A stretch of DNA of 64,000 nucleotides, taken from Thalassotalea agarivorans (GTDB taxonomy: Bacteria > Pseudomonadota > Gammaproteobacteria > Enterobacterales > Alteromonadaceae). The stretch lies in contig NZ_AP027363.1 in the NCBI RefSeq assembly GCF_030295955.1, forward strand, positions 2,767,046-2,831,045, given 5' to 3'. A program made the translations under genes and the position numbers. Below the pieces are notes generated by a model. It was not told the origin of the DNA, ran no database searches, and saw only the letters and a program-made list of their open reading frames with translations. Below, piece after piece: positions 50,622-64,000 of this stretch (positions are counted from its first letter, which is position 1; each line of letters begins with the position of its first letter).

Positions 50622-51920
50622 TTATTTCCAAGAAGTCATTTTATGACCTTTGACGGCATAAAATAGAATGAAGATATAACACGGTAGCATTACTAAGTAG
50701 GCACCCTGTTGTCCAATACTAGTACCTGACGCCAAGCCCCAAAACAACGGACCAAATGCTCCACCTGCTATGCCCATAATCAATAAGGCAGAACCTGTAC
50801 TAGTTAGTTTCCCTAATCCAGATAACGCAAGTGGCCAAACAGCAGGCCAAACAATAGCGTTAGCTAAGCCCAGAAAAGCAATAAACATTAAGGTATCTGG
50901 TAATTGGGCACCACCAAATGGCACCAGTAATGCGTTAGAGATAACAAACGAATCATTGCTACCAAAGGCTACTAAGAAAGTTAAAATCACACCTAGTACG
51001 GCTGAAACCATTAAAGCAGTTGGCTGCGAGATATAACGTGGGATTAAGATAATACCTAGAGTATAACCTAACACCATGCATACCATGGTATATGAGGTCA
51101 TCACAGCGTAATTTTCTACACCTAACGACAAGGCGTAAGTACCTATTGTATCGCCGGCAATAACTTCAACGGCAACATAGACAAACAGTGCAACTACACC
51201 TAAAGCTAAGTTTGGTTTAGCCAATACATCTTTAATTCGGCCGCTTTCTTGACCTTCTTCATCGTCTTCACTATCTAATTCTGGCAACGGTGATTTTTTG
51301 ACCAGCAAAGCTAAAAATCCAATAAACAATGCCATACCTAGATATGGGAATACCAAGCTATTGGCCATATCGTCAATTTGGGTTTGAGAAAGTTCTTGAC
51401 CAACAGTATCTGAGAAACCGCTCGAAATTAATGCAGCAAAAACAATCGGTGCAACAACACCCGCCGTTTTGTTAAGGATACCCATGATACTTATACGTGC
51501 AGCAGCTGATTCTTCTGGACCTATGCGCACAACGTAGGGGTTAACAGAGGTTTGCAACAGTGTTTGACCCGCACCCATCACTAATTGTGCCAACAAAAAC
51601 AGAGGAAAGATCTGCGTCTTCGCTGCCGGTATAAACATCAAACCAGCCAACATCATGCCAGCCATACCTAGCGCCATACCATTTTTGTATCCGACTTTGC
51701 GAATTACCCATGAAGATGGAATCGCAGTGAAGGTAACAGCAATATAAAAAGAGAATAAAATAAGTGACGCTTGAAAAGGCGTAAGTTGTAAAATTTGCTT
51801 GAGATACGGCATTAAACTGCCGTTAATCCAAGTCGCAAATCCTAAGATAAAAAATAAGCCTGCTACGATCGCCATTGGGATCCAGCTAGATTTACTTTGC
51901 TGCTGTACAGTTGATTCCAT
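50622..51920 (-). CDS. nagP: N-acetylglucosamine MFS transporter NagP
   Basis: I start at ATG 51920 (MESTVQQQSK), preceded by GAGGAAAG; the frame extends ten residues upstream without support. The 432-residue, 12-span protein belongs to the FucP/GluP sugar:proton symporter family (FFILGFATWINGSLMPYLKQ, NPYVVRIGPEESAAAR). NagP variants in Shewanella import GlcNAc in organisms that lack a GlcNAc PTS. It is the last gene of nagK-nagB-nagA-nagP. Confidence 0.9.
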   Translation of the reverse strand: MESTVQQQSKSSWIPMAIVAGLFFILGFATWINGSLMPYLKQILQLTPFQASLILFSFYIAVTFTAIPSSWVIRKVGYKNGMALGMAGMMLAGLMFIPAAKTQIFPLFLLAQLVMGAGQTLLQTSVNPYVVRIGPEESAAARISIMGILNKTAGVVAPIVFAALISSGFSDTVGQELSQTQIDDMANSLVFPYLGMALFIGFLALLVKKSPLPELDSEDDEEGQESGRIKDVLAKPNLALGVVALFVYVAVEVIAGDTIGTYALSLGVENYAVMTSYTMVCMVLGYTLGIILIPRYISQPTALMVSAVLGVILTFLVAFGSNDSFVISNALLVPFGGAQLPDTLMFIAFLGLANAIVWPAVWPLALSGLGKLTSTGSALLIMGIAGGAFGPLFWGLASGTSIGQQGAYLVMLPCYIFILFYAVKGHKMTSWK

Positions 51921-51961
51921 ACTTTCCTCACATAGTATTGGCTGTGCCAATCTGATTATTG

Positions 51962-53098
51962 TTATTGTTGATTAAAAACTTGTTTGCCTGCAATCCATGT
52001 TTGCGCAACGGTTAAGTCATCATTAAGCACGGCAAAATCTGCCTGTGCACCTTTAACTAGCGTGCCCAACAAGGGATCTTTATTGATATATTGCGCTGGA
52101 TACAAGCTCGCCATACGTATCGCTTCATCTAGCGGTACATTCAAATGGTTTTGTGTATTCTTTACGGCCGTTGCCATATCAAGCGCAGAACCCGCAAGTT
52201 CTCCAGTAGTGGATGTTAATTTGCCATCTTCAAGGAAGACTTGTCTATCAAAGAAGTCGAATTTGTCATCATCCGTTCCAACTGGCGGCATAGCATCTGT
52301 GACGAGAAATAGCTTGCCACTTGGTTTTGCGTTGAGCGCCACTTGGCAACTGGTATAATCGACGTGATGTCCATCAACGATAAGGCCACAACTGGTATTA
52401 TCGTACAACAATGCAGCGCCTACGACACCAGGCTCTCTGCCTTGTAGCGGTGACATTGCATTAAATAGATGAGTGAAACCATCAGCGCCTGCTTGCAAGG
52501 CTTTGTTTGCTATTTCATATGTTGCGTTAGTATGACCCAAACAAACCTTAATGCCTAAAGACACCATTTTTTCTATATCATCAGGTGCCACATTTTCAGG
52601 CGCTAATGTCACCAGGATTTGACCTAAGTCTTTTCGAGACAACACTGCCCACTCGCGTTCACTTATTGGGCGAATAAATTCTTCACTATGTGCGCCTTTT
52701 TTAGCAACACTTAAATGTGGCCCTTCAAAATGAACACCAATAATACCCGGGACGTTTTGTGAAATTGCCTCGGCTATCGCATCCGCGGCTTTTTCCATAA
52801 CCTCAATCTGATCGGTGATCAAGGTTGGCAGCATGGCTGTGGTGCCATACTTACTATGAGCGGTCATGATGGCTTTGATTCCGTCTAGCGAGGGAGAAGC
52901 ATTAAACAAAACACCGCCACCACCATTGACCTGTAAATCGATATAACCCGGCACAACTATCCCTGGTAACACACTATCTGTATTCGACGTATCGCGATCG
53001 ATTGCAACTATCTTGCCATCGGCAATAACGAGTACATGATCATCAAAAAAATGCTGACCATCAAATAGGCGTTTGGTTAAAATCCGAGTAATCGTCAT
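51962..53098 (-). CDS. nagA: N-acetylglucosamine-6-phosphate deacetylase
   Basis: NagA removes acetate from GlcNAc-6-P to give glucosamine-6-P. The 378-residue amidohydrolase has the metal-binding glutamate in GVHFEGPHLS, histidines in CLGHTNATY and FTHLFNAMSP, and the catalytic aspartate in LVTDAMPPVG. It lies two bases after nagB-II and 41 bases before nagP (corrected start), within one operon. Confidence 0.96.
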   Translation of the reverse strand: MTITRILTKRLFDGQHFFDDHVLVIADGKIVAIDRDTSNTDSVLPGIVVPGYIDLQVNGGGGVLFNASPSLDGIKAIMTAHSKYGTTAMLPTLITDQIEVMEKAADAIAEAISQNVPGIIGVHFEGPHLSVAKKGAHSEEFIRPISEREWAVLSRKDLGQILVTLAPENVAPDDIEKMVSLGIKVCLGHTNATYEIANKALQAGADGFTHLFNAMSPLQGREPGVVGAALLYDNTSCGLIVDGHHVDYTSCQVALNAKPSGKLFLVTDAMPPVGTDDDKFDFFDRQVFLEDGKLTSTTGELAGSALDMATAVKNTQNHLNVPLDEAIRMASLYPAQYINKDPLLGTLVKGAQADFAVLNDDLTVAQTWIAGKQVFNQQ

Positions 53099-53100
53099 CT

Positions 53101-54099
53101 TTATAAAGTCCGTGTTACCTTTTTCAGGCCTTTAGGTTCATCTGGGTTAAAGCCTCTGTCTACGGCTACTTTTGCAACGTCCAAATAAAAGCGTTGCAAC
53201 ACTGCAAGCGGCGCAAAACGCGGATGAATATCATTATCTACCTGCTTCATATGAACAAGCTCTGCACCACGACTAGCAACTTCGTCAATTTGTTCTTGAT
53301 GAGACTGCGCACTTTCATCATTTACAAAACAGTTTAGAATCGCTAAACCCTGCTCTACAAGTGTTACAGGCCCATGTAAGAACTCTGCACTTGAAAAAGC
53401 TTCGGCATGGATACTACTAACTTCTTTAAGCTTAAGCGCCATTTCTTTAGAAACAGCATAACCTAAGCCGCGGCCAAGCACGACCATGTTCTTCACGTTT
53501 TCTATAGAATTAGGCGTTAATTGTGGCTGTGCATCAATCATGGTTTGCAGTGCAGCAGGTAATGTATCTAACGCCTTAATAAGTTCTTCATTTTCCGTCC
53601 AATGAGCGGTCATTTGAAGTAAGGCTGATAGCGTAGCTAAATAACTTTTTGTTGCCGCGACTGAAATTTCTGCGCCAGCTTTTAAAGGTAAAACAACATC
53701 CACAATATCTTTAAGTGGTGCTGACTCGTCGTTAACTAAAGCAACACAATACGCACCGGCTTTTTTAGCCATCTCTGCTTGCGCTAAAATATCTGGGCTT
53801 CTGCCAGATTGAGAAATAACAATAACTAGCGCATCTTTCAACTTAAGTGATTTTCCATATACGCTCGCCACAGATGGTGCAGCAGCAAACGTCGGTACGC
53901 CAGCTTCTACTTCAATTAAGTACTTACCAAATACACCTGCGTGATCTGAACTTCCTCGTCCAATGATCATCACCATTTTAGGATCTATTGTTCTTAAGGT
54001 ATTACCTAAAGAGATCGCCAAAGCATGATTGTCACTAAGCTGTTTCGCGATGACACTAGGTGTCTCCATCGCTTCTTTTTCCATGATTGTTTGAGTCAT
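53101..54099 (-). CDS. nagB-II: Glucosamine-6-phosphate deaminase NagB-II (SIS domain)
   Basis: This 332-residue protein has two SIS domains like the isomerase part of GlmS but no glutaminase domain. IGRGSSDHAGVFGKYL, ISQSGRSPDILAQAE and AEISVAATKSYLATLSALL are the sugar-phosphate sites. Stand-alone proteins of this type in Shewanella replace classical NagB and convert glucosamine-6-P to fructose-6-P and ammonia. Position between nagK and nagA supports that role over a GlmS function. Confidence 0.88.
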   Translation of the reverse strand: MTQTIMEKEAMETPSVIAKQLSDNHALAISLGNTLRTIDPKMVMIIGRGSSDHAGVFGKYLIEVEAGVPTFAAAPSVASVYGKSLKLKDALVIVISQSGRSPDILAQAEMAKKAGAYCVALVNDESAPLKDIVDVVLPLKAGAEISVAATKSYLATLSALLQMTAHWTENEELIKALDTLPAALQTMIDAQPQLTPNSIENVKNMVVLGRGLGYAVSKEMALKLKEVSSIHAEAFSSAEFLHGPVTLVEQGLAILNCFVNDESAQSHQEQIDEVASRGAELVHMKQVDNDIHPRFAPLAVLQRFYLDVAKVAVDRGFNPDEPKGLKKVTRTL

Positions 54100-54116: not shown

Positions 54117-55004
54117 TTAATTGTTCAACGCCAATTGTTGTCTAGCGTAGATAACCGAACCTATTTCAGGTGGTTGTAGTGGTTCCTCTAGAACGGCTTG
54201 GATATTATTTGCTAACCAAGGTTTAATCCTTGGCGTTAATCCACCGATCAGGGATAGACGTGGGGGCTTATCCTTAAGTAAACTTTCGGCCAGCTTGTTG
54301 ATGTATTGCGAGCCTTCATCGACGATAGATAACGCTATTTGATCGCCCTCTTCGGCTGCGTCAAATACCAGGTTTGCCAATTGAGCAAAGAAGGTTGCTG
54401 GTTTTTTAGCAACCGCTTCTACTAGTTCGGTAGCGTCTTTTATTTTCAAAAGATCAAAGAGTTTTGGGGTTAATGCGGTCTCTTGTACTAAACCATCAGT
54501 TGCTTCAAGTGCCTGTTCAACGGCTTGTAAACCAAACCAAGCACCACTACCTTTATCGCCATGAGGGAAACCGTGCGCGCCCAACATATGTGCTTTTCCA
54601 TCAATGTAAGAAAAACCGCAAGAGCCCGTGCCTGTTATCATAACTGCACCATCATGTCCCTGATGCGCACCTAGGCAAGCCACTAATAAATCAGTCGCTA
54701 AATACATATCTTTAAATGGATGTTGCCAATGCTCTATCTGATCGAATAAAACAGGTAGATTTACGCCGGCTAGGCCAATGCCAGCAACAATATTGCTCAG
54801 TTCACTTTCGTCAATATTGGCAGCCTGAAGTGCAAGCTTTGCCGACTTAACAATATTGGTCGTCGCTTGCTCAAAACCATGCAAAGGATTGCCTGGGCCG
54901 GCAATACCCTCTCCTAGAATATTTTCCCCTCGCATGAGGACGGCTTTGCATTTACTGCCGCCACCATCAATACCTAGGATTAGTTCATTGTTGCTTGAAT
55001 TCAT
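54117..55004 (-). CDS. nagK: N-acetylglucosamine kinase, BadF/BadG family
   Basis: NagK phosphorylates imported GlcNAc. I start at ATG 55004 (MNSSNNELILGIDGGG), giving 295 residues; an ORF from 55067 would run through an operator-like palindrome. The ATP-binding phosphate loop GIDGGGSKCKAVL and the adenosine-site segments MITGTGSCGFSY and LSLIGGLTPR mark the BcrAD/BadFG ATPase fold. It is first in the nagK-nagB-nagA-nagP operon, with two palindromic operator candidates just upstream. Confidence 0.88.
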   Translation of the reverse strand: MNSSNNELILGIDGGGSKCKAVLMRGENILGEGIAGPGNPLHGFEQATTNIVKSAKLALQAANIDESELSNIVAGIGLAGVNLPVLFDQIEHWQHPFKDMYLATDLLVACLGAHQGHDGAVMITGTGSCGFSYIDGKAHMLGAHGFPHGDKGSGAWFGLQAVEQALEATDGLVQETALTPKLFDLLKIKDATELVEAVAKKPATFFAQLANLVFDAAEEGDQIALSIVDEGSQYINKLAESLLKDKPPRLSLIGGLTPRIKPWLANNIQAVLEEPLQPPEIGSVIYARQQLALNN

Positions 55005-55045
55005 GTTCAACCCGTTAAACCGTGACGCTGTCGTCACCTTTAGCC

Positions 55046-55064
55046 ATTTGACAACGTTGTCATT
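55046..55064. promoter_or_regulatory. Putative NagR-type operator proximal to nagK
   Basis: The palindrome TGACAACGTTGTCA (55049-55062), with ATT flanks, lies about 45 bases upstream of the nagK start. It shares the TGACA-N4-TGTCA core with two other sites in this locus. Regulation by a LacI-type NagR, as in other Alteromonadales, is an inference. Confidence 0.7.
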
Positions 55065-55084
55065 CATAGCTTTAGTGTACCAAA

Positions 55085-55102
55085 AATGACAGCGTTGTCA
55101 TT
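55085..55102. promoter_or_regulatory. Putative NagR-type operator distal to nagK
   Basis: AATGACAGCGTTGTCATT is an 18-bp near-perfect palindrome centred 38 bases from the proximal site. Paired operators at this spacing could allow cooperative repression. Confidence 0.72.
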
Positions 55103-55178: not shown

Positions 55179-57797
55179 TTAAGGTGCAACAGTGGTGGTT
55201 CTACCCTTTCTGTTTGACAATGGGTCAATACTTCTTACCCATACTTGACCAGAAACCGGAATAGGTGCCGTGTAACGCTTCCAGGTATTTGCCTCATCCT
55301 TAAATTCTATTGCAAGACCAGGAAAAGCGATATTCGCCTTAAGCGTGCCATTTTCAATAATCGCACCTACCGTGGGTAGTCGGAACTGGATGTTTGACTG
55401 ACTTAGCTTGGCCAATTCTTTCTTACCGAGAGCATGCGCAAATAAATGCCATGCGTTATCTCGTTGCAGTCGTTTCTCTGTCGTAAACGCACCGCTTGAT
55501 TGGTCATATTTAGCTCCCTGAAAATTATAGGGTACTGCCCAACTTGGTTTGTGCCACGCACGCTCAGCGAGCGCAATAGCACGAGGAAAGAGTTTATGCT
55601 CTGCCATTTCGTCGCTGCGTAGGTTTTCGCTCCATAGCTGCCCTTGCATGCCTAAAAATGAAACATTAGGCGCCAACATCGACTTGGTGTCGTCAGCAAC
55701 ATAGGGGTTGTCTTCTCTATCAAGCCAAAATTCAGCATGAACAGGTAAATTATCCGGCATCATTTGGAACACTTTTTCCGTGTTTGTGTGGCGGCCTGCC
55801 CAATAGTATCCATGTTCTTTTGGATCGGCTTCATAAGGAAAATCAAAATACAACGCATCTGGTGAAGAGATAACAATTTGCCACTTTCGGTTTGCCATTT
55901 CATGAACTCTAGCGTGTCCACCCCAGAAAAGTGTATCCCAAGCATTTGCTTGAACAATGGCCGGCATTTTTTCAACACGTGTTGCATGCATTCCATCACT
56001 CCAGCCAGCTGCCTCTATACCAAGTTCTTCAAGAATTGTTGACACACGCTCGACAAAATAAGCACCTAATTGCTCAGGCTTATCGATACCTTCATCGTTG
56101 TTTGCGAGAAACGCTTTACAAATCGGCGATTCAACCCAAGCGCCTGCCGTCTCGTCAGCTCCGATATGGTATCGAGTTAACGGATGATTTGCCTCGCTAT
56201 GAATAGTTTTAACTTGTTGCATGACCTCAGTTACAAAGTCGTAAGAAGACTCCATACAAGCGTTAATCGTATTATCGCCATAGAACTGAACAGAGTGATA
56301 CTTAGTTTTATCATCAAAGTCGTGCAACAAAAATTGCGTTGCTTTTTCTTCATCTTCAGCTGCCATATAACGATTATATCTGGCTGTCATTGCTTTAATC
56401 GCAGCTCGCGCATGCCCTGGCATGTCTAAAGAAGGAATTACTTGGATGTGTCGAGCTGAAGCGGCCGCTAGAATTTCTTGATAATCAGCAACAGAGTAAA
56501 AACCATTGTTTTCAGCATTAGGATCTAAACCAGCACCAAGTTGTGGCATCAAACAATTTTGTTCGCTTGGATCGAAACAACGATGGGCGCCAACTTCTGT
56601 CAACTCCGGTAATGAAGGAATTTCTAACCTCCAACCTTCATCATCCCCTAAGTGAAAGTGCAGTTTATTAAGTTTGTATGCCGCCATTTGATCAAGTAGA
56701 TCCAGGATGAATTGCTTACTTCGAAAGTTGCGAGCGACATCAACCAACACGCCCCTAAAATCATATCTCGGTGCATCGACTATTTGACCATAAGGTACAA
56801 CAGCAGAATCGATAGAGATAAGAGCAGCCAATGACTGTAAACCATAAAAAGCGCCAGCGGCGTCGACACCAATAATTGTTATACCTACGTCGTTTAGGGT
56901 GACTTGATACGCGCCAGAAATATTATCATCACTACTGACTTTAATGGAAACAGCTACACCCTGTTGTTGCTCAGCAATACCAAAATACGCTAAGCGTTCA
57001 ATGGCAGCTTGAACGTCTTCCCTTGCCACGTTTTCAAAAGAAAAATTTACGCCATTAGCTAAATCTAGCTGCCCTGCTTTTTTGTCTAGTGCAACAAACT
57101 CTGGCGTAGGAATGATTTGAGCATCAACCTCGACTTGCGCTTCATTCACCGCTTTGTTTCTGTAATAAAGAGATTCACTATTAAGCCAAGGGGTACTGTC
57201 ATTTTCAGTGCGTTTAAACTGCGTCTCATAGTCACTAATAGTGACCACATGAGGAATGATTTCCAACCCTGTTTCTGGATCTGTTTTCAATTGGGTGCTT
57301 GCCAATACAACAGGCTCAAAACCCTCTACCGCTAAAATGTAATTAGGCATGATATCTGAGTCGGATAAATGCCAGAACATCGCTCTAAAGTCGATAAAGG
57401 CTTTCTCGCCTTGCACAAACTGCTTAAAACTCTCTTTTGGCGAAATTACATGGATGTCACCATTAACATGTTTAACGTCAAAAAACTCGCTTTGCGAACT
57501 TTGAATTGGCGCCATGTGACTAAAGTAAATCTTCCAATTTTGCGCCTCGAAGTTTGTGTTGCTTAAAAATGAAATACGCGCTTGGAAACAAGTATCCGTT
57601 TCAGCACCTTTTGTACATTTGTCATCTGAACGATTAGTTAACACCTGATACTTAACTTGTACTTGCTGTGCGAACGCACTGACCATTTGCTGACTAAGGG
57701 GGGTACTAACGTCATTGTCAGGCGTTTTAGAAGACTCGCTGCAGGAGAAAAGCAACAATAAAAATGTAAGTAATGTAAATGAACGTATTGGTTTCAT
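55179..57797 (-). CDS. Beta-N-acetylhexosaminidase (chitobiase), GH20 lipoprotein
   Basis: This 872-residue enzyme cleaves GlcNAc from the non-reducing end of chitooligosaccharides. It is a lipoprotein: the lipobox LLFSC puts Cys19 at the mature N-terminus. An N-terminal carbohydrate-binding region (about 45-180), a GH20b domain (230-340) and a catalytic GH20 barrel (345-790) follow. The catalytic pair is Asp548-Glu549 in HIGADET, and substrate contacts include KLHFHLGDDEGWRLEI. It lies 112 bases upstream of the nagK region on the same strand, and an operator palindrome precedes it. Confidence 0.95.
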   Translation of the reverse strand: MKPIRSFTLLTFLLLLFSCSESSKTPDNDVSTPLSQQMVSAFAQQVQVKYQVLTNRSDDKCTKGAETDTCFQARISFLSNTNFEAQNWKIYFSHMAPIQSSQSEFFDVKHVNGDIHVISPKESFKQFVQGEKAFIDFRAMFWHLSDSDIMPNYILAVEGFEPVVLASTQLKTDPETGLEIIPHVVTISDYETQFKRTENDSTPWLNSESLYYRNKAVNEAQVEVDAQIIPTPEFVALDKKAGQLDLANGVNFSFENVAREDVQAAIERLAYFGIAEQQQGVAVSIKVSSDDNISGAYQVTLNDVGITIIGVDAAGAFYGLQSLAALISIDSAVVPYGQIVDAPRYDFRGVLVDVARNFRSKQFILDLLDQMAAYKLNKLHFHLGDDEGWRLEIPSLPELTEVGAHRCFDPSEQNCLMPQLGAGLDPNAENNGFYSVADYQEILAAASARHIQVIPSLDMPGHARAAIKAMTARYNRYMAAEDEEKATQFLLHDFDDKTKYHSVQFYGDNTINACMESSYDFVTEVMQQVKTIHSEANHPLTRYHIGADETAGAWVESPICKAFLANNDEGIDKPEQLGAYFVERVSTILEELGIEAAGWSDGMHATRVEKMPAIVQANAWDTLFWGGHARVHEMANRKWQIVISSPDALYFDFPYEADPKEHGYYWAGRHTNTEKVFQMMPDNLPVHAEFWLDREDNPYVADDTKSMLAPNVSFLGMQGQLWSENLRSDEMAEHKLFPRAIALAERAWHKPSWAVPYNFQGAKYDQSSGAFTTEKRLQRDNAWHLFAHALGKKELAKLSQSNIQFRLPTVGAIIENGTLKANIAFPGLAIEFKDEANTWKRYTAPIPVSGQVWVRSIDPLSNRKGRTTTVAP

Positions 57798-57846: not shown

Positions 57847-57870
57847 GTTTTTGACAGCGCTGTCAAAAAC
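57847..57870. promoter_or_regulatory. Putative NagR-type operator between chitobiase and sulfotransferase genes
   Basis: A perfect 24-bp palindrome with core TTGACAGCGCTGTCAA lies in the 157-base divergent intergenic region, 50 bases from the chitobiase start and 85 from the sulfotransferase start. It shares the TGACA-N4-TGTCA core with the two sites near nagK and may control both divergent genes. Confidence 0.78.
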
Positions 57871-57954
57871 TATTTACCCTTTTGTCATTTACGCGCTACT
57901 ATAGCTTCTTAAACAGGTAATTAGGCTGCCAACAATTATTTTGTTGAGGGTGAT

Positions 57955-59430
57955 GTGGAACAATTAAAACAACTAAGGCAACAACTTAACGCTGCAATGC
58001 ATCGCAGAGATATAAGCACTGCGTTACAAGTCGCTGATAAGATTTGCTCTTATACGACAGCAACGGAACAAGACTATGAAATGGTCTTATCTATGTATAG
58101 CCAAACTACCCATTACGACAACCTCAAAAGCGCAACTAAATTAGCCATTCATGCCTTTCCATCCAACGCTAGTTTTTACTATACGTATTACCAAGCCTTG
58201 CGTTTTTTTCGAGAGACAGAGAGCGCTAAGAACGCGCTACAAGAAGCGATTAGGCTAGCGCCAAACCAAGCGGAGTGGCAACTTGATTTAGGGAATTGGT
58301 ATCGAGAACATGGTGAGTTCGACGCAGCGATAAAAGTATTTGAGCGTGTTATTAAAACAACACCACATTTGTATAAAACCTACTGGTATCTCAGTAGTAT
58401 CCAACCAATACTTAACAGCGATGCGTTGGCCCTGTTAAAGAAGATGTTTGCTCAGGAAAACGTCAATCAATCGGATGCAAAAACCTACATTGGTTACGCC
58501 CTTTTTAATCATTACCATGCACAACAAGCCCATGAAAAAGCGTTCCACTATTTGACAGTTGCAGCTGAACATCGCAAAAGTTTAGCGCCGTTCAATATTA
58601 ATAAAGAACGCGCAGATACTAACGCGCTTTTAGACATATTCAATAAATCCTACATCAAATCAAATCTACCGGCGGTTGATCTAAAGACCGATAGTAAGCC
58701 TATTTTTATTTGTGGCTTGCCTCGCAGTGGCACGACCCTATGCGAGCAAATTCTTTCAAGCCATAGTGAAGTTACCGGCGGTGATGAGATTTTTGCTTTT
58801 TCAGAAGCGGTCGCAAGTATCGTTGAAGAAAATAACGTTACTTCGCCATATCCAGCTTTGTTTAAGGAATTGGATAAAGGCCATTATCACGAAATCGCTC
58901 AAAACTACTTGTATCGCACAACATATTTGCAAAACACACCTCTTTTTACAGACAAAATGTTATTGAACTACAAGGTAGTTGGTGCGATTCTGCTCGCGTT
59001 CCAGCAAAGTAAACTGGTGTTTTGCACGCGTGATCCGATGGACACCTTATTTGCGTGTTATCGCCAAATACTTGGCAGTGGTAATCAATACTCTTACTGT
59101 TTAGATCAAATGAGTGACATGATTGTGATGTATCACCAACTTTTAAAACATTGGCAGAAGCTATTTCCACAGCGTGTTTTTCATCTGCAATATGAGCAGC
59201 TAGTCGAGCATCCCGAGCGGACAATCAAAGCACTTGTTGCTAGTGCCGAGCTAGATTGGCAAACTCAATGTTTGCACTTTTATGAAAATGAACGCCCTGT
59301 GCATACCTTAAGTAACACGCAAGTGCGTAAACCAATAAACAAACAGCACGTTGCGAGTTGGAAGTGCTATCAAAAGCAATTACAAAAGTATCATGAAAAG
59401 TTTGTTGAGAAGGGGCTCTATACTTTTTGA
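57955..59430 (+). CDS. TPR repeat-containing sulfotransferase
   Basis: This 491-residue protein starts at GTG 57955 after a GAGGGTG site. The N-terminal half (about 20-215) is a tetratricopeptide-like helical repeat array. The C-terminal half is a PAPS-dependent sulfotransferase with the 5'-phosphosulfate loop FICGLPRSGTTLCEQIL (251-267), GGDEIFAF, and the 3'-phosphate loop region VFCTRDPMDTLFACY. Acceptor unknown. It is divergent from chitobiase, and its 3' end overlaps the halogenase-like gene by 13 bases. Confidence 0.87.
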   Translation: MEQLKQLRQQLNAAMHRRDISTALQVADKICSYTTATEQDYEMVLSMYSQTTHYDNLKSATKLAIHAFPSNASFYYTYYQALRFFRETESAKNALQEAIRLAPNQAEWQLDLGNWYREHGEFDAAIKVFERVIKTTPHLYKTYWYLSSIQPILNSDALALLKKMFAQENVNQSDAKTYIGYALFNHYHAQQAHEKAFHYLTVAAEHRKSLAPFNINKERADTNALLDIFNKSYIKSNLPAVDLKTDSKPIFICGLPRSGTTLCEQILSSHSEVTGGDEIFAFSEAVASIVEENNVTSPYPALFKELDKGHYHEIAQNYLYRTTYLQNTPLFTDKMLLNYKVVGAILLAFQQSKLVFCTRDPMDTLFACYRQILGSGNQYSYCLDQMSDMIVMYHQLLKHWQKLFPQRVFHLQYEQLVEHPERTIKALVASAELDWQTQCLHFYENERPVHTLSNTQVRKPINKQHVASWKCYQKQLQKYHEKFVEKGLYTF

Positions 59431-60965
59431 AGACCAAAACGTTTTATTTTTTCTAAAAGCTCGCGATGTTTAGGCAGTCTGTCTAACGCTGTCTGACAAT
59501 GTTGCTCTAATTGCTGAAAATACGCCTTAGCGTGTTCTTCTTGCCCCGCTTTGTATGCCAAGTGAGTCGCGTCAGTGTCAAAGTGCATGCCATAAAGCAC
59601 ATAAAGGTAATTTTCTTTATTGAAGACAGAAAATTTATTCTCAAAGTCATACGCATGTGGGGGCTGCAACGCCCATCGTTCCAGCTTTTGTTGTAATGAT
59701 AATGGAATAGAAGCTAATGAACGATTGTCACGCCAGAAAGGCGTATCGTCTCGCTTGCTAATACAGTAATGCAATTTAATAAAATCTATAACATGCAACC
59801 AACTGGCTTTGACGCGCTCATTAAAACAATCAGCCATTAGTGGCATTTGTTCTTTAAAGGTAGGAAACTGCTCTGCTAACATTCGGGCTGTAGCATCAAA
59901 GACTAAAAGGCCTGTAGCCTCCAGCGGTTCAACAAACCCCTGAGAAAGACCTATTGCCGCACAGTTTTTGAACCAAAACTTTTCTCGATAACCAATATTC
60001 ATGTCGATAAAGCGAGCACCTTCGACTAAAGCGTCATCACCTAGGTATTGTGCTAGCGTGTATTTAGCTTGTTCGTCACTACAGTATTTAGATGAAAAGA
60101 CATAACCAGTGCCTCGCCTCGTCGTTAGTCCAATATCCCAAATCCAGCCTGCATCTTGAGCCGATGCAATGGTGTAGGAGGGAATTTCATCTGATGGCGC
60201 AACGTAAGGCACCTGAACAGCAAGCGCTCTATCGGCAAAAAGGACGTCACTTTGATCAATGAAGCTAACATCAAGCGTTTTACCCAACAGCAAACTTTGA
60301 AAGCCAGTACAATCGACAAAAAAATCACCAGAAATGGCACCTAATTCTTTAGTGATAATCGCAGAGATATCACCTAAAGGCGCTGTTTCAACCTGCTCAA
60401 CCGTCGCCTTTACATGCTTTACGCCCATGTCGGTCGCATGCTTAGTCAGTAATTTTGCAAACTTTGCGGCATCAAGATGGTAGGCGTAAGAAACCGCACC
60501 CTGATATTCCGGCGTAGTGATGAGTTTTGGCGCCAAGTTGTTGTCGCACACTCTCCCCTGAATAGAAACCGCATCAACAAAGCTTTGATGGGTGTTACTA
60601 TTTAGCCAATACAATGTTGAATCAATGTCGGCTGGCGCAGGATAATCAAAAATATGATGATAACTATGCTCGCCTTTATCGGCTGGATTGTGCTCCCAAT
60701 TTACAAACTTAATACCTTGTTTAAATGTGGCATCACATTGTTGCAGAAAATCGGTTTCTGATATGCCAAGGTACTGCAACGATTGACGCATCATAGGCAC
60801 AGTCCCTTCGCCAACACCTACCGTTGGAATATTGGGCGATTCGACTAACGTAATCGTTACATCAGTATTTGAACTTGGTTGGAGTTGTTTGGCTAAATGA
60901 TTCGCCGTAAGCCAGCCGGCAGTACCGCCACCGACGATGACAATATGACGTATTTTCTCAGACAT
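59418..60965 (-). CDS. Tryptophan halogenase-like flavoprotein
   Basis: This 515-residue protein belongs to the flavin-dependent tryptophan halogenase family. The FAD loop is GGGTAGWLTANHLA; GVGEGTVP follows, and FKQGIKFVNW (residues 81-90) contains lysines at the position of the catalytic Lys79 of PrnA and RebH. EPLEATG carries the conserved glutamate. The WxWxIP motif is changed to WIWDIG (274-279), so halogenation is uncertain. Such proteins recur beside SapC and TonB receptors in marine polysaccharide loci; their reaction is not established. It lies 29 bases after sapC. Confidence 0.85.
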   Translation of the reverse strand: MSEKIRHIVIVGGGTAGWLTANHLAKQLQPSSNTDVTITLVESPNIPTVGVGEGTVPMMRQSLQYLGISETDFLQQCDATFKQGIKFVNWEHNPADKGEHSYHHIFDYPAPADIDSTLYWLNSNTHQSFVDAVSIQGRVCDNNLAPKLITTPEYQGAVSYAYHLDAAKFAKLLTKHATDMGVKHVKATVEQVETAPLGDISAIITKELGAISGDFFVDCTGFQSLLLGKTLDVSFIDQSDVLFADRALAVQVPYVAPSDEIPSYTIASAQDAGWIWDIGLTTRRGTGYVFSSKYCSDEQAKYTLAQYLGDDALVEGARFIDMNIGYREKFWFKNCAAIGLSQGFVEPLEATGLLVFDATARMLAEQFPTFKEQMPLMADCFNERVKASWLHVIDFIKLHYCISKRDDTPFWRDNRSLASIPLSLQQKLERWALQPPHAYDFENKFSVFNKENYLYVLYGMHFDTDATHLAYKAGQEEHAKAYFQQLEQHCQTALDRLPKHRELLEKIKRFGLQKV

Positions 60966-60994
60966 AATGTCGACCTTACTCCAACCTAATTGAC

Positions 60995-61696
60995 CTAGTT
61001 ACTTGCTTTTAAGCGAGCAACATTTTTTAGCTGATGAAGCGAACCAAGATGATGATAAATTAAGGCGATAAAACCTTTTTCACGCAACGTCAGATAATCT
61101 TCATCTGAAAGCTGAGCAAGCGCTTTTTCGTCAACTAAATAGACTCCTTCAATAAGGATTTTGTCACCACTAAAGTTAAGTGTCAGTTGTTGCTCTTTTA
61201 ACAGGCCCATATCAGACAACATTTTAACAAAAGCCGTTGTTACCTGTGCATTTTCAAAATAGCGACCGAGTGCATTCTTGCGTTGCGTTAAATACTCACT
61301 TTCGTTACCAACATCATCAAATAGACCTTCACCTTCAGTCTTGTTAACCAAAGGGCTTTCTTCGTTGATCAACAACTGCAATTGCGTTTCGTCAGACACA
61401 GAAGGCATTAGCGCAAAAGGCTGGTGAGTTAAAATACTCGGAATATAATGACCACGCCATTTTTCATCTTGATAAAATACATTTTCTTTCTGGTTTAAGC
61501 CCAGCAATGCTACCGCTTGAAATGCACCAGTTTCTGCATTCTTCACAAACACTACTGGCATCTCCGAACCCGCTGTCGCGAATTCATGCGCCGCTACTGG
61601 CACAATTTGTTGTGTTTCAAGCCCAGGAAAAGAAGTGATTGGTTTTACTTTAAGTTCACTATGAAGCTCAAAATTGAGTGGTTTGAAAGAAGACAT
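60995..61696 (-). CDS. SapC family protein
   Basis: This 233-residue protein matches SapC (PF07277) in its N-terminal FPGLETQQIVPVAAHEF and in the central DEKWRGHYIPSILTHQPFAL segment. SapC was named from a Campylobacter surface-layer locus; in marine bacteria it is found with TonB receptors and tryptophan-halogenase-like proteins, function unknown. It lies between the TonB receptor and the halogenase on the same strand. Confidence 0.88.
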   Translation of the reverse strand: MSSFKPLNFELHSELKVKPITSFPGLETQQIVPVAAHEFATAGSEMPVVFVKNAETGAFQAVALLGLNQKENVFYQDEKWRGHYIPSILTHQPFALMPSVSDETQLQLLINEESPLVNKTEGEGLFDDVGNESEYLTQRKNALGRYFENAQVTTAFVKMLSDMGLLKEQQLTLNFSGDKILIEGVYLVDEKALAQLSDEDYLTLREKGFIALIYHHLGSLHQLKNVARLKASN

Positions 61697-61744
61697 GTTA
61701 CACCTAGAAAAGTCATTAAAATTTTAGAAGTTAAATTTAGCGAC

Positions 61745-61772
61745 AAAAAAGGGGAGTTACAACTCCCCTTTT
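61745..61772 (-). terminator. Terminator between the TonB receptor gene and sapC
   Basis: On the minus strand the stem AAAAGGGGAGTT / AACTCCCCTTTT with a short loop is followed by extra T. It lies about 20 bases after the receptor stop and would make receptor mRNA more abundant than the downstream sapC-halogenase message. Confidence 0.82.
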
Positions 61773-61789
61773 GTTACTTTTCGCTAATT

Positions 61790-64000
61790 TTAGAAGCGAA
61801 CCGCTACACCAGCAACAACACGTGTTGCCATTTCATATTGGTATAGTGGGAAGCCGTCAGCAAAGCCACTTGCATTTGTTTGGAACGCATTGTTACCAAA
61901 TTGCAATGAGTCTTCACCTGTCGCATTGATTACGTCAAGTGACAAATCAATGTTCTCAGTTACGTGGTATACACCGCTGATATCAAGTGTACCGAAACCA
62001 TCGTGTAAACGGTTACCGTATGCACCTTCTTCACGTAACATGTATTCGCTACGGTAGTTGTATGAAACGCGTACTGAGAAATCATCGTTTTCATAGTAAC
62101 CCGTCGCATTGAATACGTGATCTGAACTGTCACTTAAGAACGGGTTCATATCTGTAAACGTATCAGAATCAGTCGACGTATCAGTGTATGTATAGTTAGC
62201 TAACAAACCGAAACCGTTGCTGAAATCTTGTTGGTATTGAAGTTCTAAACCAGAAACATCACCTTTTTTCGAGTTTTGCTTCTCTTGAACTGTCCAACCG
62301 TTTGCGATTTCATCAGGGCGCATGTTTGCTGTGTCGTAACTACCATTTGGTAAGTCTTCTGTCGCAACATTGTATGTCTCAGCAATGCTGATGAAGTTTT
62401 CTACTTGCTTCATAAATACTGTTGCAGAAAGTAGAGAACTCTCGTTGAAGTACCACTCAACACCAATTTCAAACTGGTTTGCTAAGAACGGATCCAAATC
62501 AACGTTACCCATGATCCAGAATTGGTTATCTGGTACATCATCGTTTGCACCAACCGCACTTGGGTTAGTATACATATCGTTATACTGAGGACGTGCCATT
62601 ACACGCGCAGCAGCTGCACGAAGAACAACTTCATCAGTTAGGTCATACGCTAATGTGAAACTTGGAAGAATTTCGCTGTAGTCACCTTCTGCTTCTGTTT
62701 TATTACCGTCTAAGTAATATGTAGATGTTGCATCAGTTTGTACGTAACGAACACCAAAGTTACCGCGGAAGTTTTCACCACCGTAGTTAGCCATTACGTA
62801 TAGCGCAGTGTTGGTTTCATCAATTTCACTGTAAGCACCAAGCTCTTCAGTTTCACCAACGATACTTGCTTTCGCCCATGCTTTGATTGCATCTACGTCA
62901 AATTTTGAAATTTGGTAGTCGCCGTAGCCTACATCAATTGTACCAACACGTAGGTCAGCTGTAGAAATACGGTTATTAAAACCAGCTTCTTGATCTAAGT
63001 ACATTTGACGAGAAGTTGTGTTGTGTTGACCAACACGAGCACCCATCTTAACGCTTGAGATAAAGTCCATATCTAGTGGAAGCTCTAAATCAATTTGTGC
63101 GTAAGTTTCTTCGTCAGTTTTCGGTGTTTTGTTGAATGCAGTACCAGTACCCATTAGTAATGAACCTGGGTCATAGTCAGCCATAGATTGGCCGCCGATA
63201 CCATTTGGTAATGACCAAGTTAACTCGTCACCAGTAAAGTCATATGTGCCGTCTACGATAGGTGTGTTTACACCGTCATCAACAACCATTTCAAAGTCAG
63301 TACCACCTGTTGATGTTGTTCTACCGATTTGAACATCTAAAGTGAAGCTATCAGCTTCATATGTTGTTACTAAATCGATAACATCAGAATTCATTGTCGC
63401 TTCACGAGGACGCGCTTGATAGTAACCTGTTGCTAGTTGACCTTGAACAGCTGTACCACGAGGGTTTACACAATTACCACCTAAACATGCATCTGGTGTA
63501 TTACCTGACCAAGATGTATCACCTTGCGTTAACCATAATGCGTAGTTTGTATTGTCCGCTTCCATTTTCATGTCTAGCGCATTAAATACAAAAGAAAGGT
63601 TTTCAGTCGGTGCGTATTCTAAAGCTACAGTTAAAGCGCTACGCTTACGATCTTGTTCGAATGCAACCGGACCTGCACCCCATTCCCAGAATGCTTCGTT
63701 ACCTTGACGCTGAAGAGCACGCTCTTGTGCTACAGCTGATACTAAAACACCAAAGTTTTCTGCATCGTTTTTCCAGCTATACATACCTGAAAGTTGAGGT
63801 GATACTTCACCTGAATCGTCAGAATGTTCGCCTTCTAATGAAGCGTAAACAGTATTGGCGTCTAACTCTAGCGGAGTGCGCGTGTTTACAATTACAGTAC
63901 CACCAACACCACCTTCAATTAGGTCAGCTTGAGCAGACTTGTAAACTTCTAAGTCACCAACAAGTTCAGATGGAAGCAACTCATAGTTAAAACTACGCTT
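61790..64000 (-). CDS. TonB-dependent receptor (3' part)
   Basis: The frame is open through the right edge, so the signal peptide and part of the plug are missing; about 736 residues remain. The plug domain end reads LLPSELVGDLEVYKSAQADL and EGGVGGTVIVNTRTPLEL, as in the oligosaccharide-type receptor class of Alteromonadales. The rest is a 22-strand-type barrel ending in AGVAVRF with a terminal Phe. Receptors of this class next to nag genes import chitooligosaccharides. Substrate is inferred from context only. Confidence 0.93.
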   Translation of the reverse strand, partial: KRSFNYELLPSELVGDLEVYKSAQADLIEGGVGGTVIVNTRTPLELDANTVYASLEGEHSDDSGEVSPQLSGMYSWKNDAENFGVLVSAVAQERALQRQGNEAFWEWGAGPVAFEQDRKRSALTVALEYAPTENLSFVFNALDMKMEADNTNYALWLTQGDTSWSGNTPDACLGGNCVNPRGTAVQGQLATGYYQARPREATMNSDVIDLVTTYEADSFTLDVQIGRTTSTGGTDFEMVVDDGVNTPIVDGTYDFTGDELTWSLPNGIGGQSMADYDPGSLLMGTGTAFNKTPKTDEETYAQIDLELPLDMDFISSVKMGARVGQHNTTSRQMYLDQEAGFNNRISTADLRVGTIDVGYGDYQISKFDVDAIKAWAKASIVGETEELGAYSEIDETNTALYVMANYGGENFRGNFGVRYVQTDATSTYYLDGNKTEAEGDYSEILPSFTLAYDLTDEVVLRAAAARVMARPQYNDMYTNPSAVGANDDVPDNQFWIMGNVDLDPFLANQFEIGVEWYFNESSLLSATVFMKQVENFISIAETYNVATEDLPNGSYDTANMRPDEIANGWTVQEKQNSKKGDVSGLELQYQQDFSNGFGLLANYTYTDTSTDSDTFTDMNPFLSDSSDHVFNATGYYENDDFSVRVSYNYRSEYMLREEGAYGNRLHDGFGTLDISGVYHVTENIDLSLDVINATGEDSLQFGNNAFQTNASGFADGFPLYQYEMATRVVAGVAVRF

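Follow-up and report, generated by a model that had tools for sequence, protein, structure and literature searches.

Why should a locus for the uptake of N-acetylglucosamine (GlcNAc) and chitobiose carry a SapC protein, a halogenase-like flavoprotein, and a sulfotransferase? The question is raised by a 64,000-nucleotide stretch of the Thalassotalea agarivorans genome (assembly GCF_030295955.1, contig NZ_AP027363.1, positions 2,767,046 to 2,831,045), referred to here as the window. Based on open reading frames (ORFs) and Pfam matches, a TonB-dependent receptor, SapC, and a halogenase-like gene (HalB) lie in a row with a TPR-sulfotransferase converging on them, as a first-pass annotation of the same DNA had described. 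The four genes are as follows.

57955-59430, + strand: TPR-sulfotransferase, 491 amino acids (aa), GTG start; Pfam Sulfotransfer_3 and TPR
59418-60965, - strand: HalB, flavoprotein of the Trp_halogenase family (PF04820), 515 aa; Pfam 438.5 bits
60995-61696, - strand: SapC (PF07277), 233 aa; 223.4 bits, cut-off 28.9
61790-64000, - strand, running past the window end: TonB-dependent receptor of the TIGR01782 type; TonB_dep_Rec barrel in the part within the window (Pfam)
L007:8835-11465, the full receptor ORF: 876 aa; TIGR01782 596.7 bits, cut-off 310

The sulfotransferase and HalB genes are convergent with a 13-base overlap of their 3' ends, and 29 bases separate SapC from HalB. We found that the receptor-SapC-HalB set is a real, conserved accessory module and a new part of the locus. 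As to its role, our leading explanation, which we put forward tentatively, is that a cytoplasmic kit tailors the cognate receptor ahead of export, SapC acting as a client adaptor.

The first-pass annotation had named a gene-neighborhood survey as a check, and this revealed that the co-occurrence is conserved in other genomes and is not a chance row. We examined the 80 nearest of at least 581 halogenase relatives in gamma- and alphaproteobacteria, with Thalassotalea, Colwellia, Pseudoalteromonas, Shewanella, Microbulbifer, Cellvibrio, Sphingomonas, Novosphingobium, and Caulobacter among the genera. Within 6 kb of HalB, a TonB receptor was present in 77 loci, SapC in 77, and both in 75; the exceptions were L236, L244, L277, L283, and L309, and in L277 and L309 the halogenase lies near the end of the DNA. 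Gene order was also kept. Among 104 unique sets in which receptor, SapC, and HalB lie within three ORFs (L058 left out), the order receptor-HalB-SapC occurred in 73 and receptor-SapC-HalB (the window type) in 14; 11 sets had SapC ahead of the receptor on the other strand and 6 had other orders, and HalB was downstream on the receptor strand in 101. Mirror-tree distance correlations (rho) were 0.57 for SapC-receptor, 0.53 for HalB-receptor, and 0.47 for HalB-SapC, where the p value of 0.002 is the floor of 499 permutations and is uncorrected for species relatedness. The two locus samples overlap, as seen from L233 and L079 with sulfotransferase ORFs of identical start and length, and are not independent. 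Among 90 genomes drawn from across the order, TIGR01782 receptors occurred in 26 and halogenases in 26, with 24 genomes common to both, and 64 of the 87 halogenases had a listed TIGR01782 receptor within 6 kb versus about 2% expected; with scoring limited to nine receptors per genome, 64 is a lower bound. SapC was present in 46 of the 197 genomes of the order-wide sample.

The T. agarivorans genome itself contains nine full-length halogenases in six receptor loci; for one of these halogenases the receptor is 7.5 kb away. Receptor, HalB, SapC, Cupin_8, HalA, and DUF6445 genes are consecutive in one locus and receptor, HalB, and SapC in another, L149 has HalB and a receptor without SapC, and 4 of the 10 receptors above the TIGR01782 cut-off have no halogenase nearby. 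We further counted 99 SapC genes in the fetched regions and this genome (one in L058, missed by the ORF caller in a locus with receptor and halogenase, is extra). Within 6 kb, a receptor was present for 69, a halogenase for 68, and both for 65; of the 27 with neither, 5 sit near the ends of fetched DNA. GH20 or NagK was found within 6 kb of 19 of the 65 SapC genes with both partners and was absent from the other 46, most other neighbors being untyped; besides, the two annotated plasmid examples of the module are galactoside and agar loci. The specific link to chitin and GlcNAc drawn by the first-pass annotation is thus not borne out. The substrate should rather be locus-specific yet sugar-independent, which the receptor fits best. 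A module not tied to one sugar, and nine halogenases in six receptor loci of one genome, likewise fit a receptor-specific substrate.

What chemistry the module might perform is suggested by its conserved residues. The window HalB contains GGGTAG at the GxGxxG flavin site, K82, and E349, and in an alignment of 111 halogenases the catalytic Lys and Glu were kept in 71 of 71 HalB and 40 of 40 HalA proteins. The WxWxIP motif was complete in 40 of 40 HalA proteins, whereas its Pro was kept in 2 of 71 HalB proteins and replaced by G, A, D, or S in the other 69 (WIWDIG in the window). According to the passage of PMC5945002 drawn on here, it has been suggested that this motif prevents monooxygenase activity. 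HalB may therefore catalyze halogenation or hydroxylation, and we file it as a PF04820 flavoprotein rather than as a proven halogenase. The Trp4 motif for free tryptophan as substrate, as defined in an excerpt of PMC8269204, occurred in 0 of the 111 aligned proteins. The nearest structures were 9lu2 and 2pyx for HalB and 6y1w, 9luq, and 6frl for the HalA proteins of T. agarivorans. We take 6y1w to be Xcc4156 and 6frl to be BrvH. On that reading, both are among the nearest structures to HalA; HalB belongs to the same family with the same Lys and Glu, whereas it forms a separate type in which the WxWxIP Pro is mostly replaced. According to the cited sections of PMC5945002 and PMC7336383, Xcc4156 and BrvH use indole derivatives in vitro, the activity of BrvH on indole being called low by its authors, and their native substrates are unknown. 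The halogenase-like flavoprotein QhpG has also been reported (PMC7876137, in part) to dihydroxylate a protein Trp while its substrate is still in the cytoplasm, ahead of export, and not to react without QhpD, its substrate-holding partner; QhpG and LodB are both flavoproteins needed for protein tryptophan modification.

Cupin_8 and DUF6445 are optional members of the module. The HxD...H triad, which we read as a signature of Fe/2-oxoglutarate (Fe/2OG) oxygenases, was found in 28 of 28 Cupin_8 and 18 of 18 DUF6445 proteins. The nearest structures of Cupin_8, which is presumably a JmjC protein, were JMJD5 and FIH, both protein hydroxylases, and a sequence search of PDB with DUF6445 gave nothing credible. 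Both families are likely Fe/2OG oxygenases, DUF6445 on the HxD...H motif alone. The model of the TPR-sulfotransferase had a predicted local distance difference test score (pLDDT) of 87.6, its alignment having seven rows of which one (L282) is not a sulfotransferase. The catalytic domain of this predicted model matched TPST1 with Z 20.6 over 231 residues at 2.8 A, and seven TPST entries (TPST1/TPST2) gave Z values of 20.1 to 20.6 versus 17.2 to 17.4 for polyketide-type sulfotransferase domains. This domain is thus predicted to fold like protein-tyrosine sulfotransferases, and a PRSGT motif with Glu278 was present in five of five relatives. In contrast to TPST1/2, the window enzyme is bacterial, carries an N-terminal TPR domain, has no signal peptide by eye, and is only about 20% identical. 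L282, one of three TPR-sulfotransferase matches among the 80 HalB loci, was rejected as a TPR/GT41 protein.

The module stands in an ordinary NagR-type GlcNAc/chitobiose uptake regulon. Chitobiase and nag genes adjoin it and have an operator palindrome in common with it, in agreement with the first-pass annotation. The neighboring features are listed below.

50622-51950, - strand: MFS transporter (PF07690), presumably NagP, a name given from locus position and recall
51962-53098, - strand: NagA-like amidohydrolase (PF01979)
53101-54099, - strand: NagB-II, glucosamine-6-phosphate deaminase; NF046059 553 bits, cut-off 430
54117-55067, - strand: NagK, N-acetylglucosamine kinase; NF046058 426.8 bits, cut-off 370
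55049-55062, no strand: operator TGACAACGTTGTCA at the nagK start
55087-55100, no strand: operator TGACAGCGTTGTCA before nagK
55179-57797, - strand: GH20 chitobiase/hexosaminidase (Pfam)
57852-57865, no strand: operator TGACAGCGCTGTCA between the GH20 and TPR-sulfotransferase genes
61747-61772 (L007 8792-8817), no strand: hairpin between receptor and SapC, 11 pairs with a T-rich flank, terminator- or attenuator-like by consensus match alone
L007:11954-12973, divergent from the receptor: LacI-family regulator gene (PF00356 and Peripla_BP_3)

The palindrome TGACARCGYTGTCA has five exact sites in the 3.35-Mb genome, four of them at this locus: two at nagK, one in the gap between the GH20 and sulfotransferase genes, and one before the receptor, 476 bases beyond the window end. 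The fifth precedes a gene elsewhere that we take to be nagX-like, whose protein had an acyltransferase as its sole match, below the cut-off. A site with one mismatch lies before the LacI-family gene, and with up to one mismatch the palindrome occurs at eight places in the genome versus three for the reversed pattern. By our criterion, 14 of the 80 HalB loci are nag loci. For the operator survey we scanned 36 nag-type loci (L233, L238, L241, and L277 were among those left out, and L114 entered by its nag-type receptor only), comprising 28 with halogenase and receptor, 6 with a receptor and neither halogenase nor SapC, 2 of which have a Cupin_8 gene, and 2 without a receptor on the fetched DNA. 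Of the 28 halogenase-bearing loci, 25 had an exact operator before the receptor, two had one with a single mismatch, and L087 had none; of the 6 halogenase-free loci, 5 had an exact operator there and the sixth had one with a single mismatch. Between the GH20 and TPR-sulfotransferase genes, an exact operator was present in all five scanned nag loci with that sulfotransferase, including that of the window; in L243, a DUF6445-SapC-HalB operon fills this slot next to GH20. A LacI-type NagR regulon with receptor, nagP, nagB-II, nagK, and nagX has been described in Shewanella (PMC2996990 and PMC5343134, in the parts cited). The window locus shares with the NagR GlcNAc regulon of Alteromonadales the LacI-type gene, palindromic operators before the receptor, the nagK operon, GH20, and the nagX-like gene, and the NagK and NagB-II equivalogs, whereas SapC, HalB, and the TPR-sulfotransferase are added; the words "halogenase" and "SapC" occur nowhere in the main text of PMC2996990 and PMC5343134.

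Observed are the gene set, the common operator, the kept linkage and order, the catalytic residues, the HxD...H triads, and the predicted sulfotransferase fold; from these we infer the derepression, that the receptor is modified, what SapC does, and which chemistry is involved. NagR derepression would cause the receptor to be made together with SapC, HalB, and the TPR-sulfotransferase, and cytoplasmic SapC, as client adaptor, might hold the unfolded receptor chain before export, by analogy with QhpD. HalB could then oxidize an aromatic side chain of the presented receptor by halogenation or perhaps hydroxylation; elsewhere, extra oxidations may come from HalA and from Cupin_8 and DUF6445 as likely Fe/2OG oxygenases, and at the window locus the TPR-sulfotransferase may sulfate a receptor tyrosine. 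The modified receptor would finally be exported and gain in function or durability in the outer membrane. By eye, none of the accessory proteins, SapC included, has an obvious signal peptide, implying that any modification would precede export, as with QhpG. The recurrence of this partnership beyond chitin genes suggests an unrecognized, pre-export chemical finishing of surface proteins. It is more doubtful whether receptor finishing by SapC, flavin enzymes, and Fe/2OG oxygenases, sometimes with a tyrosine sulfotransferase, is widespread in Proteobacteria. If receptor finishing does occur, its products would include, e.g., bromo- or hydroxy-tryptophan and sulfo-tyrosine, and receptor side chains would be the native substrate of this halogenase branch. 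To our knowledge, TonB receptors have been treated as unmodified. This would matter also for BrvH and the Xanthomonas halogenases, given what PMC5945002 and PMC7336383 state in the sections cited above about their native substrates, and the tight linkage makes receptor modification directly testable on one abundant outer-membrane protein.

Several results weigh against receptor tailoring. We aligned 134 receptors (76 halogenase-linked, 52 without accessory gene, and 6 with another accessory gene only) and sought aromatic columns that track halogenase linkage, and none did so across the four clades with both linked and unlinked members; it is possible that the targets are clade specific or lie in unalignable loops, either of which would be compatible with this result. 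Matches to QhpG (39.1 of 240 bits) and LodB (25.2 of 400 bits) also fell far short of the curated cut-offs, a difference from these enzymes. The AlphaFold2 model of SapC (pLDDT 95.9) had no Foldseek match in PDB at E 0.001 (best E 0.15), a best VIA Z of 3.5, and no match suggesting a chaperone. HalB and HalA stand beside receptors without SapC in L149, L200, and L203, 23 of the 87 halogenases of the 90-genome draw have no listed receptor within 6 kb, and the 27 SapC genes with neither partner and 6 of the 12 plasmid SapC neighborhoods that we opened (of 55 records), in which no large surface-protein gene was seen, point the same way. Relatives of module-linked receptors exist without the module, which is therefore dispensable.

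In nag-type receptors (18 with halogenase and 7 without), T120 and T132 were found in 18 of 18 linked and 0 of 7 unlinked proteins, and V110, S111, and G171 were enriched with halogenase; we rejected these residues as marks of the module because the pattern was not repeated in other clades. Receptor Tyr416, in the acidic context ADYDP, was present in five of five nag loci with the TPR-sulfotransferase versus 6 of 26 without it. Many non-tyrosine residues have the same clade pattern, so that Tyr416 is merely a lead for a sulfation target.

The halogenase might instead act on a small indole- or phenol-like molecule, such as a signal, a defense compound, or an imported co-nutrient, with SapC aiding the reaction or handling the product. 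We consider this rather unlikely. The structural neighbors of HalA (6y1w, 9luq, and 6frl) and the indole derivatives used in vitro by Xcc4156 and BrvH argue for it, as do some HalA/HalB pairs away from listed receptors. However, a common small-molecule product would need no copy per receptor, and one genome keeps nine copies over six receptor loci; moreover, no recurring biosynthetic genes were seen, most neighbors being untyped, and the activity of BrvH on indole is low.

It is less likely still that large β-rich surface proteins use SapC as a chaperone for export or assembly, while the flavoenzyme and the oxygenases act on a glycan, a lipoprotein, or SapC itself. SapC without a halogenase, in some cases with another large exported surface protein encoded next to it, and the recurring oxygenase partners both go beyond the first-pass annotation. 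Such SapC genes adjoin Pfam-checked ShlB-type two-partner-secretion genes in L028, L039, and L042, with cargo genes too in L039 and L042 (the flanks of all three are short), and in L054:5430-8702 SapC adjoins ExbB, TonB (both by Pfam), and a TonB receptor in what may be a dedicated TonB system. The 12 plasmid loci included two with receptor and halogenase, two alphaproteobacterial plasmids with filamentous-hemagglutinin genes, one with a 38.8-kb LEPR-XLL gene and an HlyD-type gene, and one with a 12.5-kb unnamed gene. A large exported surface protein is thus a frequent but not constant neighbor of SapC. On the other hand, SapC occurs in 77 of the 80 HalB loci, which is tight if the enzymes needed only another molecule, and HalB with a receptor but no nearby SapC in L149 and L200 indicates that receptors do not always require SapC close by.

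Very unlikely, in our view, is that the accessory genes are mere passengers of sugar loci, functionally unrelated to the receptor. Receptor relatives without linkage and the 23 halogenases away from listed receptors accord with it, but linkage was found in two classes, order is fixed in most of the 104 sets, catalytic residues are kept, and operators lie beside accessory genes in different nag loci. The first-pass annotation had proposed the receptor, the saccharide, or a surface component as the modified partner; a surface protein, be it the receptor or another, is still the best candidate, whereas modification of an imported saccharide, which the operator common to the kit and the nag genes would favor, is hardly credible, since the kit is not tied to one sugar (galactoside and agar loci, 46 of 65 sets) and sugars lack the electron-rich ring on which halogenase-type enzymes act.

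Further searches with SapC gave no viral fold match at E 0.001 and nothing credible in a sequence search of PDB; the lack of a PDB match to the predicted model is no proof of a new fold. In four long open frames inspected by eye for SapC fusions, no second domain could be recognized. We found no paper that assigns a function to SapC or the module and none with both SapC and halogenase, subscription papers, in which a remark on the neighborhood is possible, lying outside the search; the consulted portions of PMC11897816 and PMC6431674 contain neither "SapC" nor "halogenase." Long repeat-like ORFs beside SapC in L021, L026, L033, and L035 had no Pfam match, and the remaining orphan SapC loci were read by eye. 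In L059:7941-16660, an orphan SapC adjoins an ORF that is 2270 aa or longer and has a start resembling LEPR-XLL, with ABC-transporter-like ORFs near. Some orphan copies in the order sit at housekeeping genes such as mraZ, as in L084:7089-8672 (Pfam) and L107 (by eye), and L085, L090, and L094 resemble the L084 arrangement by ORF sizes.

Tandem HalA/HalB genes for which no TIGR01782 receptor was listed within 6 kb were observed at G267:C1:972392-975233, G242:C4:2291-6827 (near the contig start), and G232:C7:143531-146461, and these clusters could point to a nonreceptor substrate. Adjacent halogenase pairs also occur at G233:C1:2012642-2015589 and G268:C2:143037-145993; among the halogenase-bearing genomes of that draw of 90, only G233 and G268 lack a listed TIGR01782 receptor, and their pairs perhaps belong to a different pathway. 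Two tandem HalB genes are present in L074, L079, L104, L105, and L114, and in L074, L079, and L105 one of the two is close to the window HalB and the other diverged. In T. agarivorans, L147:7469-8836 encodes a 456-aa protein that matches Trp_halogenase only in part (46.4 bits), a diverged and perhaps noncatalytic paralogue; its gene has a full HalA gene on either side, and a TonB receptor gene is next to them. A phosphoglucose isomerase gene (PF00342, L079:3227-4870), itself preceded by an operator, separates the LacI gene from the receptor, and L234 and L281 have ORFs of like size and start at the equivalent place. Finally, the 7.3-kb scan containing the hairpin at 61747-61772 gave 13 terminator-like sites versus 7.0 +/- 2.6 in shuffles, and promoter-like sites were rarer than in shuffles. 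The position of this hairpin 3' of the receptor gene implies that SapC and HalB might be expressed below the receptor level.

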